A stretch of DNA of 64,000 nt from Spirosoma rigui. GTDB lineage: Bacteria > Bacteroidota > Bacteroidia > Cytophagales > Spirosomataceae. The position numbers and the translations under genes are program-made. The DNA lies in the NCBI RefSeq assembly GCF_002067135.1, contig NZ_CP020105.1, forward strand, positions 496,001 through 560,000, read 5' to 3'. This document shows positions 48,471 through 52,818 of the stretch, piece by piece (the stretch's first letter is position 1; every line of letters starts with the position of its first letter). The notes beneath the pieces are model-generated. The model saw nothing but the letters and a program-made list of their open reading frames with translations, was not told the DNA's origin and did not search any database.

Positions 48471-49586
48471 TCAGCAGAGAACTTCCATCTCCACTAACTC
48501 GCCGAACATTTCCTCACCGACTACGCCTTCGACGGAATCGACTGAGCCAAGGTTCAGTAATAAATCACGCAGGTCTTCCGTAATCTCGTAGGTCTGGTAC
48601 AGCCGCCGATCAAATAGAATTGGGGCCTGCTCCAGATCACATAACGAATACCGATCCTGGTTAAATACCGGGCGCGCTGACCGGCGTCCGTTTGTGCCCC
48701 GCTGGGGTGCTTCGGGCTCCAGGAACGACTGGATATAATTCCACCCCTCCCACTGGCCTGGATAGCGGCTCAGGTACGGCCAGAATGCATCATAGAGCTG
48801 TTGCATGGCCTCCTGACAATACATATCCCGGTTACTCTCCCGAATGGGTCGAATAGGATTCAGGAAATGCAGCACATTGGTAAGACTTGCTTTTCGATAG
48901 CTCACGACGGGGACGATAGGTACCCCAGCCGCGTGCGACAGATAGCCAACTCCTTTTCGTGTCATTACACGCCGATGACCAAATTTAACCGACAGGAACT
49001 GGTTTTCTTCACCGGGCTCCGGGGCCGTTTCCGGGCTCCCGTCTACGTAGACGATCAGCGACCGGCCGGCTTTCAATTCCCGCAGTACGGTCAACCCAGC
49101 CGACGGGCTACCGGTCTCCACAATCCGGAAGACATTCGTCAGGCCATGTTTCTCGCGCAGCCCATCAATATGAGCCTGAAGATCCCCGCCCTGCTGGCGG
49201 TTCATAGTATTGCCAACCAACAATACACAATCCACACCGTTCCGAAAGAGCACGCTTGTCAGTTGCCGATAGGATCCGAGATGGTAGGTGCAGTAAATCT
49301 TTGGTCCTTCCATCTTCGTAAATACATCGTAGGCTCCGCTCAACTTGACCAGATCACCCGCTGAAAGGCACTGCTGATCAAAGGTGGTGAATGCCTGCTG
49401 GAGCAACAGTTCCCGGAACAGTGACTCGTGCTGGCTGCGCGGGATGAAGGGCATGATATTCTCCATGTTCGCTGAGAACGTAGTGAATTTCATTAAATAG
49501 CCCCTTTCCTTCCGCAGATCGACTCGCTCGAAGTATTCGCGGCAGCGAGCCAGCTCTTTTTTATACAGGACGCGTGCTGTTGGCAT
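48471..49586 (-). CDS. LPLAT (LpxL/HtrB-like) acyltransferase-type protein with PqqD-like C-terminus
   Basis: A 371-residue protein of the lysophospholipid acyltransferase superfamily, third gene of a predicted operon behind two 54-residue peptides. Motifs: IYCTYHLGSYRQL (~98-110) corresponds to the HX4(D/E) active site, but the acid position is Arg107; then VYVDGSPETAPE (~180-190) and FGHRRVMTRKGVGYLSHAAG (~202-221) with GVPIVPVVSYR, as in LpxL-type enzymes. There is no N-terminal membrane anchor as in LpxL. Residues ~300-371 are extra: QAPILFDRRLYQTYEITEDL then LLLNLGSVDSVEGVVGEEM, a beta-hairpin plus two helices that resembles PqqD-type RiPP recognition domains. Acyl transfer to the peptides is inferred. 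Confidence 0.75.
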   Translation of the reverse strand: MPTARVLYKKELARCREYFERVDLRKERGYLMKFTTFSANMENIMPFIPRSQHESLFRELLLQQAFTTFDQQCLSAGDLVKLSGAYDVFTKMEGPKIYCTYHLGSYRQLTSVLFRNGVDCVLLVGNTMNRQQGGDLQAHIDGLREKHGLTNVFRIVETGSPSAGLTVLRELKAGRSLIVYVDGSPETAPEPGEENQFLSVKFGHRRVMTRKGVGYLSHAAGVPIVPVVSYRKASLTNVLHFLNPIRPIRESNRDMYCQEAMQQLYDAFWPYLSRYPGQWEGWNYIQSFLEPEAPQRGTNGRRSARPVFNQDRYSLCDLEQAPILFDRRLYQTYEITEDLRDLLLNLGSVDSVEGVVGEEMFGELVEMEVLC

Positions 49587-49598
49587 GGTATGTGTTAA

Positions 49599-49763
49599 TT
49601 AAAGCGAGAAAACTGGCTTGGCTGTAAATCCCTGGAATAACATCGTTGTGCAGCAACCGTCGGGTTTGAGAAACTTGAGCACGTTGGCCGTTTCGTTTTT
49701 AGCGGCAGAGACAGCGACGTTTTTCGATACTTGAGCGACTTTGATGGCGAATTGCTTTTTCAT
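49599..49763 (-). CDS. Small peptide B, candidate RiPP precursor
   Basis: A 54-residue peptide (MKKQFAIKVAQVSKNVAVSA, then AKNETANVLKFLKPDGCCTT and MLFQGFTAKPVFSL). It differs from peptide A (49798-49962) only at positions 6, 9, 16 and 17; residues 18-54 are identical, with GCC at 36-38. The charged N-terminal half followed by a conserved hydrophobic, Cys-containing C-terminus is the layout of ribosomally made, modified peptides with leader and core. No signal peptide is apparent. The stop TAA is 12 bases before the acyltransferase ATG. Too short for standard gene calling. Confidence 0.75.
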   Translation of the reverse strand: MKKQFAIKVAQVSKNVAVSAAKNETANVLKFLKPDGCCTTMLFQGFTAKPVFSL

Positions 49764-49797: not shown

Positions 49798-49962
49798 CTA
49801 GAGCGAGAAAACTGGCTTAGCTGTAAATCCTTGGAACAACATCGTCGTGCAGCAACCGTCGGGTTTGAGGAACTTCAATACATTGGCCGTTTCGTTTTTA
49901 GCGGCAGAAACAGTGATGTTTTTCGATACTTGAGCGGCTTTGATGGTGAATTGCTTTTTCAT
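49798..49962 (-). CDS. Small peptide A, candidate RiPP precursor
   Basis: A 54-residue peptide (MKKQFTIKAAQVSKNITVSA, then AKNETANVLKFLKPDGCCTT and MLFQGFTAKPVFSL), first gene of the predicted operon. Its stop lies 34 bases before the start of its near-copy. The two copies also share the leader sequence just before the ATG (AAAACAAGAAAGTCGCC versus AAAACAAAAAAGTCGCC), so they come from a tandem duplication. The promoter at 50046-50076 is ~85-115 bp upstream. It has no known-family hallmark beyond the leader/core-like split. Alternative roles are a bacteriocin or a signal for the adjacent LytTR regulator. Confidence 0.78.
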   Translation of the reverse strand: MKKQFTIKAAQVSKNITVSAAKNETANVLKFLKPDGCCTTMLFQGFTAKPVFSL

Positions 49963-50045: not shown

Positions 50046-50076
50046 CAAAGGTATAGCCCCCCCTGAGGGTCATCAA
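50046..50076 (-). promoter_or_regulatory. Promoter of the small-peptide operon
   Basis: On the minus strand a TTG (50076-50074) is followed after exactly 20 bp by TACCTTTG (50053-50046), a full match to the Bacteroidota -33/-7 consensus. Transcription would start near 50040, giving a leader of ~78 bases with a small hairpin (AGCGC 50018-50022, GCGCT 50029-50033). Confidence 0.75.
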
Positions 50077-50155
50077 TCGCAATAAAGTCACCTTGTGAAG
50101 GTTAGATTAGTCAATAATTACCAGTATCTTAGTCTCAGCTTTTGTTAAGGGAACC

Positions 50156-51178
50156 ATGAACGCAGTACAACTCAACCGGACCTTTTTGAAGAAGCCGCTC
50201 TACAGCGTCTATCTTCTTATGGGCCTCGTGTTGCTTATCGAAGGGTTATCCTGGACGTCTGCTTTTCCCGCCAAACTAGAGCTCATGACCCGGCTGGGCG
50301 GTCCCTGGCCTTACTTTAGCCGGTTCTTTCAGGAGTTTATTCTGACCGAAGTTTGTACAGCCTTTATCCTGGCTACGCTCATTAACCAGCATCACAAACG
50401 GTTTCACCTGGATGCTGTCGATTTAACACCGCGCGATATCGCACGTTACGAACTGCATTTGTTGCCAACACTCCTGCTTTCGTTCTTCGTATTTAATCCC
50501 ATTACCGAATCCGTCCGCTTCCTGCTGGTCGAATTTCCTAATTATTCATTTTCTCATTTTCTGAATACTTATCTGATCGGAACCTTTACGGTTGAGATTT
50601 ACATACGCTACTTAATCCCAATTCTGGTAACAGGTTACTTACTGATCAACATATCGCTCGCGACCGATTACTTCAGCCAGCGACAGGCCGCGCAGGAAGC
50701 CGCCGAAGCGCAGGCTGCCGAAGCATCGCAGGCTGCACTGGCGTTATCTGCCGCTTTTACGTCCAAACCTCCCCCGGCCGCTTCACCTTATCTGGCTCAT
50801 CTTAAAGGCAAAAACGCGTATGGGGAACTGGACTTTCCCGTTACCGATGTTTACTTCTTCACGATTGAGGACCGATCCTATTATGCCGAGTTGGCAAAGG
50901 GTCGGTATGCTGTTGTTAAGACACTCAACGACTTAGAAACAGAGCTGGACCCCAGCCGTTTCTTCCGCGTCAAACGCGATTATATTGTTAACAGACACGC
51001 CGTTCTGAACTATGCCTACTGGGAGAACGGCAAGTACATTGTTAGACTGAACACCCCCGAACGCCACGAAATTGTTGTGCCCCGGGCACGCATGCAGGTG
51101 TTCCGTGAATGGTTACAGGAGACCCAGCAGCCGTTTCTGGATGAAACGACTACCAGTTCTCAAACCATTGATGTATAG
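50156..51178 (+). CDS. Membrane-anchored LytTR-type transcription regulator
   Basis: A 340-residue protein with four predicted membrane segments (about residues 16-35, 56-77, 105-122 and 140-170; SVYLLMGLVLLIEGLSW, HLLPTLLLSFFVF, YLIPILVTGYLLINISL among them), an Ala/Glu/Gln coiled-coil-like linker (~175-205), and a LytTR DNA-binding domain at ~220-325 (VTDVYFFTIEDRSYYAELAK, DPSRFFRVKRDYIVNRHAVL, IVVPRARMQVFREWL). The membrane part may sense a ligand. It has no receiver domain. It is divergent from the small-peptide operon across 193 bp, which suggests that it controls it, and might respond to the product. It ends 13 bp from the convergent LuxR gene. Confidence 0.85.
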   Translation: MNAVQLNRTFLKKPLYSVYLLMGLVLLIEGLSWTSAFPAKLELMTRLGGPWPYFSRFFQEFILTEVCTAFILATLINQHHKRFHLDAVDLTPRDIARYELHLLPTLLLSFFVFNPITESVRFLLVEFPNYSFSHFLNTYLIGTFTVEIYIRYLIPILVTGYLLINISLATDYFSQRQAAQEAAEAQAAEASQAALALSAAFTSKPPPAASPYLAHLKGKNAYGELDFPVTDVYFFTIEDRSYYAELAKGRYAVVKTLNDLETELDPSRFFRVKRDYIVNRHAVLNYAYWENGKYIVRLNTPERHEIVVPRARMQVFREWLQETQQPFLDETTTSSQTIDV

Positions 51179-51191
51179 TTTCCCCAATCGT

Positions 51192-51890
51192 TTACAAATA
51201 GTTCTTCACGGCAATTCCGTATCTCGGTAGCTGACGACAACTGCTCAAATCCAGTTTTTTAGCGATGTGAGCCTTGTGGTTAACCGCCGTTCGGTAACTG
51301 ATACTCAACCGATCCGCAATTTCGTCGGACGTATGGCCGTTTGCTACCAGTTTGAGTACCTCACGCTCCCGATCAGTAAGCCGTCTAAGTTCATCGCGGG
51401 TGTTCTCATCGATCATTTCTACTCCGTAGTTCTTCAGCAGGTCCATAAAGCCGCTGCTGTAGTAGCAACCACCATTGCTCACCGTTTGAAAACACCGGTA
51501 TAGCTCATCCAATCCATCGCTGGCGTAGAGAAAGCCGAAAAAACCCATCTGCATCGCCGTAGCCACCATACGGTGGTCGGGTTTGCTGGTGTATAGAATA
51601 AACTTGGTTTGCTGATTGGACTGCTGCATTTCGTGTACGATATCGAATCCCCGGCGACCAGACATTTCTGATTCCAGAATAACGCAGTTGGGTCGCTTTA
51701 CGCGGATCTGCTGGAGCGTATCATCCATTTCCACAGCACGCCCTACAACGTTGTATCCCTGCTCCTTGAGGAGTTGACTTAGCACTTCGCAGTTAAACAC
51801 TTCAGACTGGGCGACAAGAATCGAAAAATCCCGACGACGAAGCGCAAAATTCTTGGCGGCCTCCTGGCCATTTGCTGGTCTGTCCATCAT
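51192..51890 (-). CDS. LuxR-type regulator with degenerate receiver domain
   Basis: A 232-residue response-regulator-like protein. The receiver (residues ~22-145) has the fold sequence, but the phospho-accepting Asp is Glu73 (VILESEMSG in place of VLMDLxMPG), the acidic pair is QS (ILVAQSE) and the conserved Lys is Ala123 (GFFGFLYAS). The C-terminal GerE-type helix-turn-helix (~165-225; LTDREREVLKLVANGHTSDE then IADRLSISYRTAVNHKAHIA) is intact. So it probably acts without phosphorylation; the Glu could mimic the phosphorylated state. It is convergent with the LytTR gene. Upstream of it lies a 29-bp inverted repeat. Confidence 0.9.
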   Translation of the reverse strand: MMDRPANGQEAAKNFALRRRDFSILVAQSEVFNCEVLSQLLKEQGYNVVGRAVEMDDTLQQIRVKRPNCVILESEMSGRRGFDIVHEMQQSNQQTKFILYTSKPDHRMVATAMQMGFFGFLYASDGLDELYRCFQTVSNGGCYYSSGFMDLLKNYGVEMIDENTRDELRRLTDREREVLKLVANGHTSDEIADRLSISYRTAVNHKAHIAKKLDLSSCRQLPRYGIAVKNYL

Positions 51891-52560: not shown

Positions 52561-52818
52561 TACTAGGCATAGTAATTTATTACTACTGTTAACGATACAA
52601 AAGGTAATTACCATAAACAAAAACCTTGCCCAAGTCGCTCTTAGCCCAATAAAATAGACCAAAAGGAGCGCTATACAGAATACTACAAATCAATATTACT
52701 ACGTTCAGGATACCCCCATAGAGCATCTAGACTGGGGATGCCCAATGAAGTACCATACCCGCCTGGCCACGGAGGGTAGCCTGGGTAACCCTAAGTTTCT
52801 GATGGATGTGTGGCGTTT
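52561..52818. other. Gene-free A/T-rich stretch before dnaG end
   Basis: After the terminator, ~260 bases hold no open frame with protein-like sequence, no tRNA-like fold and no promoter I can name. The dnaG gene (minus) ends at its right end. Its terminator was not identified here. Confidence 0.4.

Follow-up and report, generated by a model that had tools for sequence, protein, structure and literature searches.

A candidate LPLAT-family peptide acyltransferase with an altered active site, encoded beside two precursor-like peptides in Spirosoma rigui

In the window (the whole stretch of 64,000 nucleotides of Spirosoma rigui DNA that was analysed), a gene for an LPLAT-family enzyme with arginine at the place of the catalytic acid was found together with two genes for precursor-like peptides and two regulator genes. 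Judging from the sequences and their conservation, we give about an even chance to the proposal that this soluble enzyme is a peptide acyltransferase acting on the two upstream peptides, yielding a lipidated RiPP-like peptide from a regulated unit. Peptide acylation of some kind is probable. A signalling role of the unit falls somewhat short of an even chance, and cysteine as the acceptor in the core branch is proposed more tentatively. The sequence-only reading of the enzyme gene that preceded this analysis mentioned neither its strand nor the peptides, the regulators or the operator.

Gene organization

The features of the locus were as follows, with positions counted from the first nucleotide of the window.

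48471..49586, minus strand: LPLAT-family enzyme gene, 371 aa, with H102 and with Arg107 at the acid place (ORF call, alignments)
48474..48671, minus strand: extra C-terminal domain of the enzyme, residues 306–371 (conservation in core rows)
49599..49763, minus strand: precursor-like peptide gene, 54 aa, containing GCC and ending in FSL (ORF, conservation, codon bias)
49798..49962, minus strand: second, near-identical copy of the 54-aa precursor-like peptide gene (ORF, conservation, codon bias)
50046..50053, minus strand: -7 promoter element TACCTTTG (TAnnTTTG) of the peptide operon (motif scan)
50108..50123, no strand assigned: operator-like palindrome in the intergenic region of the divergent genes, 70 bp ahead of the -7 element (motif scan)
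50156..51178, plus strand: membrane LytTR regulator gene, 340 aa, divergent from the peptides (PF04397, hydropathy)
51192..51890, minus strand: NarL-type response regulator gene, 232 aa, with receiver and GerE/LuxR domains (PF00072, PF00196)

Active site of the enzyme

The active site of the LPLAT superfamily is HX4(D/E). The sequence-only reading had described the ORF as an LPLAT protein in which the motif YHLGSYRQ places arginine where the acid should be, and this description held throughout. The ORF is real (371 aa, minus strand, 49586..48471), and the motif is present, with Arg107 five residues on from His102. When a 26-row alignment of the enzyme family was compared by hhalign with 20 PF03279 proteins from the same genome and order, homology to these LpxL-type proteins extended across 222 columns, with a probability of 95.8 and an E value of 8.3e-9. 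HLGSYR was aligned to the H-x-x-x-W-E of the PF03279 proteins, 20/20 of which had H in the His column and E in the acid column; Arg therefore stands at the acid place and the altered dyad is real. Residue 102, aligned to the catalytic His of LpxL, was H in 53/53 core rows, and residue 107 was R in 53/53. Twelve more distant rows had R (7), Q (2), P (1) or G (1) at the acid place, the region being absent from the remaining one. S or N was found there in L092–L097, R in L146, L147, L149 and L151, and F in L148; an HX4 motif was looked for in L150 and not found.

The enzyme alone matched PF01553 under the cut-off (E 0.25) and two LpxL-type NCBIfam models far under the cut-off (E 0.024 and 0.039). 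The distant homologue L090 exceeded the PF03279 cut-off (28.5 vs 22.3 bits), and L054 was barely under it (22.1 vs 22.3 bits). The whole-family profile gave no matches to PDB sequences, and a full-length AlphaFold2 model built from seven close sequences had a pLDDT of 49.3.

The C-terminal domain

The claim of an extra, PqqD-like tail stood in its first part and was not supported in its second. The tail is real and conserved, spanning about 66 residues (306–371), of which F308, N309, R312, Y313, L324, D326, Y330 and L343 were identical in 53/53 core rows. A profile of 26 tails was compared by hhalign with 13 PqqD proteins from related genomes, giving an E value of 0.23 vs 0.07 for the control, a reversed alignment. 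As a positive control, the N-terminal parts of six M50-type proteins, taken from loci of the enzyme family, scored E 7.6e-4 with these PqqD proteins, at a probability of only 25, and 0.16 with the reversed PqqD alignment; since the former value was obtained, the profile method was not blind. The enzyme tails matched these M50 N-terminal parts in hhalign at E 0.042. No PqqD match was found when the 26 tails were searched against Pfam or the tail against PDB sequences. PqqD/RRE identity of the tail was thus rejected at the sequence level by Pfam, PDB sequences and hhalign, and a tail lacking PqqD similarity, the outcome named beforehand as counting against the claim, is what the sequence profiles returned. 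A tail-only AlphaFold2 model (seven close sequences, pLDDT 71.7) contained helices only and was weak at the presumed hairpin; this model (pLDDT 72) had no Foldseek matches in the PDB.

Precursor-like peptides

The nearer peptide gene stops 13 bp ahead of the enzyme start on the same strand. The peptides have the layout MKKxFxIK...AKxE...LKF...CC...FSL, with a conserved N-terminal half (MKKxFxIK...AKxES). In a family sample of 200 genomes, 65 had an enzyme match at E 1e-5, and 61 of the genomes were taken as having core orthologues (cut at 6.2e-69, next match 1.8e-55). The peptide survey covered 53 of these 61, leaving out G191, G197, G071, G100, G091, G116, G058 and G138. All 53 genomes examined had a Cys-containing precursor-like peptide upstream of the core enzyme, and in all 53 it showed what is expected of a RiPP precursor, namely a short length, a conserved N-terminal half and a position beside the enzyme.

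Peptides were detected by pattern in 54 of 59 loci and by eye in L021, L038, L039, L046 and L047; six of the 59 (L031–L036) are duplicate contigs counted elsewhere in the survey. The pattern yielded 48 distinct peptides, one of which (L025_2) was spurious, and the other 47 had either CC (40) or one Cys (7). The invariance of Cys is partly built in, because the pattern filter demanded it; in a listing made without the Cys filter, every precursor-like peptide had Cys, and the same was true of the five loci inspected by eye.

The two copies in the window differed from each other at third codon positions in 11 of 16 cases, and from four relatives in 22/42, 25/53, 26/56 and 23/54 cases (a fifth, L068, gave no comparison). 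The differences were mostly at third codon positions, as expected of coding sequence. Six precursor peptides matched no NCBIfam families.

Regulators and promoter

The LytTR regulator had its PF04397 match (7.8e-19) at the C terminus; its hydrophobic segments number three or four, according to the threshold chosen. Its gene adjoined that of the enzyme in 30/30 core loci with flanks and, when coordinates were compared by eye, in 61/61 core genomes. At L053 (G003:C2:4263806-4264737) the membrane LytTR gene was split into two ORFs. The NarL-type regulator gene was present in 30/30 core loci with flanks. Of the flanking genes, DnaG and Rng were both present in the window, L031–L036 and L066–L069, DnaG only in L037–L041 and L071, and neither in the stretch covered at L042–L053 and L070. 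The idea that chromosomal synteny alone keeps the block together was rejected, because DnaG and Rng were lost in several genera while the NarL, LytTR, peptide and enzyme genes stayed.

A palindrome, TAGTMAWTAWTKACTA, was located 70 or 71 bp ahead of the motif TAnnTTTG, which we take to be the -7 promoter consensus, in 50 of 52 loci; the -7 match was lacking in L022 and L023, and the 52-locus scan omits L021. Mismatches to the palindrome consensus numbered 0 in 8 loci, 1 in 19, 2 in 4, 3 in 12 and 4 in 9, vs mononucleotide-shuffle expectations per 52 loci of 0.01 with 1, 0.28 with 2, 2.3 with 3 and 12 with 4 mismatches, the rows with 4 mismatches being assigned by the fixed distance alone. These occurrences are not independent, since the consensus was derived from the same sequences and relatives share ancestry. 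ACTA repeats spaced 22 bp apart were found in 31/52 loci vs 0.65 expected. In the strain's own genome, seven sites matched TRGTMAWTAWTKACTA with at most one mismatch (backward-read control, 4 rows vs 12). Only the site at the peptide promoter had a -7 element at 70 bp; the other six did not, and a wider regulon of the operator was not found. A further site at 52570-52585 of the window, one mismatch from the operator consensus, is bordered by a 141-aa ORF and by the DnaG gene at its 3' end; no -7 element occurs within 200 bp on either strand, and the site probably arose by chance.

The membrane LytTR protein alone was rejected as a marker of the system. Among ten further membrane-LytTR loci, L152–L157, L160 and L161 had no such enzyme in the stretch covered, and other membrane LytTR proteins of the same type sit in unrelated contexts. 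ORFs of about 180–200 aa whose match to the LytTR protein is confined to its membrane half were also seen (G164:C1:4763948-4764484, G182:C1:455210-455746 and similar ones, including L159).

Distant homologues

The 26-row enzyme profile at E 1e-20 retrieved homologues from 42 of 391 order genomes and 7 of 396 class genomes; the two samples overlap, and both include family genomes. Several distant homologues adjoin RiPP genes. In L095, two DDVLF precursors, a JmjC protein (PF08007) and the enzyme homologue are followed 4 bp on by a peptide arginase of the FlmR/OhkR family (404.7 vs an NCBIfam cut-off of 350); an FlmE/OhkG rSAM protein was also encoded (718.1 vs cut-off 500). L065 and L091 contained an M50-type protein (PF02163, just under the cut-off), the homologue, grasp-with-spasm ATP-grasp and SPASM proteins (TIGR04192 and TIGR04193, under the cut-off) and Cys peptides, and the grasp-with-spasm ATP-grasp was likewise present in L096. 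M50-type proteins also occurred with Cys peptides in L054, L063 and L090; L054 additionally has a PF00491 arginase (5.6e-59) next to the homologue, and L090 a radical SAM protein. The L054 arginase (L054:3518-4768) carries about 120 extra N-terminal residues and lies by a peptide containing Cys and Arg. In L063, five near-identical peptides of 49–51 aa stand in a row at -2681 to -1341 from the homologue, followed by the M50-type protein.

Ketosynthase-type genes, named by eye, were found upstream of the homologue in L056–L062 and L064. A lantibiotic dehydratase gene was present in L057 and L060 and was not among the few neighbours checked of L056, L061 and L064. The combination of homologue, ketosynthase-type genes and lantibiotic dehydratase at L057:2325-4928 and L060:6184-9082, the latter also with a 70-aa GG peptide, possibly represents a lipolanthine-like cluster in Bacteroidota. 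The L060 peptide had no Cys.

At the class level, L146–L149 and L151 (5/5) had a Cys peptide of 35–63 aa, then the homologue and then a PF06580 kinase, the peptides of L149 and L151 being chosen by eye among other small ORFs. These peptides have 3–6 residues past the last Cys (KCDIEIL, KCDFVIL, SCCFDY, DCEYWDL, KCNIVFPF). A response regulator with LytTR was identified by Pfam in the three class-level loci checked (L146–L148). The ORF after the kinase looks cut short in L149; in L151 it looks receiver-like, and no LytTR was found.

No clear peptide was seen in L055, L096 and L150, and no small ORF upstream of the homologue in L092 and L093. The homologues of L092–L094 and L097, all from one genus, are 440–469 aa long and have Ser at the acid place and no visible RiPP genes nearby. 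In a 51-row tree, the LpxL set was separated (100/99) and the core enzymes formed one clade (96/88); the deep order was unresolved, the M50 and kinase groups were not single clades, and several branches were very long. No relative of the enzyme was found in viral contigs with the two patterns scanned or in the plasmid collection.

The earlier suggestion that the changed dyad reflects a different acceptor gained support from this gene content: peptide genes lie upstream in all 53 genomes examined, and RiPP genes lie beside several distant homologues.

Proposed function

In this layout, the NarL-type regulator, the LytTR regulator or both would act at the palindrome to turn on transcription of the peptide–peptide–enzyme genes. 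The enzyme would recognise the precursor by the latter's conserved N-terminal half, perhaps using its own extra C-terminal domain. His102 would deprotonate the acceptor, and the acyl group would come from acyl-ACP or acyl-CoA. The acceptor would most likely be the thiol of the conserved Cys, with Lys as the alternative; the acid place may have been free to become Arg because a thiol would be acidic enough without an Asp or Glu polarising the His. Cleavage and export would be carried out by proteins encoded elsewhere; the conserved block has no protease or exporter gene. Finally, the product might act on the neighbouring membrane LytTR protein, or through it, in a pheromone-like feedback, which is the least certain step. 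We regard as doubtful the full circuit, in which an HX4R LPLAT of Bacteroidota S-acylates the peptide Cys to a lipopeptide pheromone and the product is sensed by the membrane LytTR protein or, in the relatives, by a kinase and a LytTR regulator. In the arginase-linked relatives, the acceptor may be Orn or Lys.

It is unlikely that the acylated peptide is instead secreted as a lipopeptide antibiotic or a surface-active RiPP, with the regulators controlling its production only and with Lys or the N terminus perhaps replacing Cys as acceptor. The RiPP contexts of the distant homologues fit such a product, and the peptide arginases beside L095 and L054 point to an amine (ornithine) acceptor there, but exporter, immunity and protease genes are absent from the block and the regulators are conserved (NarL 30/30, LytTR 61/61). 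The Lys variant is further weakened by 11 of the 48 peptides, which have no Lys after the last Cys.

Because the acid is missing, catalysis is not assured, and the catalytic acid was replaced in every row examined. That the protein is an inactive LPLAT confined to peptide binding, as a chaperone, sequestering or immunity protein, is nevertheless improbable, since His102, Gly104, D182 and the QWE motif were conserved in 53/53 core rows and the relatives occupy the positions expected of a modifying enzyme. The homology to LpxL and the homologue subgroup without peptides would suit an ordinary lipid-modifying acyltransferase with the small proteins as unrelated operon partners. This is highly improbable, as the Spirosoma genome already encodes one separate, normal LpxL with HX4E, the enzyme has no membrane helix by hydropathy (no 19-residue window above 1.3) whereas the genome's LpxL has one at 12–30, and the pairing with peptides is 53/53. 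Least credible is another Cys reaction of the kind seen in agr-type signals, in which the carboxylate of the same peptide would be joined in a thioester or thiolactone: although the last Cys of the class-level peptides lies 3–6 mostly hydrophobic or acidic residues from the end and kinase and LytTR regulator genes adjoin those homologues, the Cys of the core branch is far from the C terminus, and we know of no LPLATs that activate carboxylates.

Comparison with known systems

The preferred reading, a peptide acyltransferase acting on the upstream peptides, can be set against several known systems. The enzyme is homologous to LpxL/LpxM (HtrB, PF03279), with the catalytic His aligned, and differs from them in Arg for Glu, the extra tail, the lack of a membrane helix by hydropathy and the adjoining peptide genes. 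In agr and ComQXPA, genes for a small peptide, a modifying enzyme and a LytTR-type or kinase regulator are found together. The same kinds of gene (peptide, candidate modifying enzyme, LytTR or kinase regulator) are clustered here, a likeness of gene layout only; no sequence relation was seen, an LPLAT replaces the prenyltransferase or AgrB, and the core has one membrane LytTR protein.

Fatty acylation of ribosomal peptides by GNATs is described for selidamide, nostolysamide, microvionin and goadvionin in PMC13060382. The window enzyme shares with the selidamide-type acyltransferases the proposed role, peptide fatty acylation, but these are GNATs, whereas neither Pfam nor NCBIfam gave a GNAT match for the window enzyme. 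According to PMC12703449, FlmR and OhkR convert precursor Arg to Orn. With these flm/ohk peptide-arginase clusters and their DD(I/V)LF precursors, homologue L095 shares the arginase family and two DDVLF precursors; the window locus differs in having no arginase and a precursor of another type. The word 'acyltransferase' is absent from the main text of that paper (PMC12703449). The DAG-RiPPs of Bacteroidota carry a lipoprotein signal and are lipidated via Lgt/LspA/Lnt, as PMC12636315 describes. A lipidated ribosomal peptide from Bacteroidota, as proposed here, would be common to both, but the window peptides had no lipobox by eye and the locus has its own acyltransferase.

In these accounts, fatty-acylated RiPPs are made by GNATs (PMC13060382) or through the lipoprotein pathway (PMC12636315). 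Among the open-licence PMC papers listed by the literature searches, none described, judged by title and start of abstract, an LPLAT-type RiPP enzyme or such a circuit, and the term 'LPLAT' is absent from the nostolysamide paper (PMC13060382). If the proposal is true, an LPLAT family associated with precursor, arginase, grasp-with-spasm and lantibiotic dehydratase genes would provide another enzymatic way of acylating such peptides, using an altered active site. Were the pheromone reading to hold, Gram-negative bacteria would possess a counterpart to ComQXPA that is not homologous to it, and the wider LPLAT family would form a second, non-GNAT lineage of RiPP fatty-acyltransferases. Should the regulators serve as receptors, the two peptides, the enzyme, the two regulators and the single operator would make up a simple signalling circuit of Bacteroidota.

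In L037–L041, L071 and L045–L050, the genes that come next after the enzyme gene resemble, by eye, polysaccharide export genes or genes for very large secreted proteins. In these genera, such genes are possible targets of the regulators.
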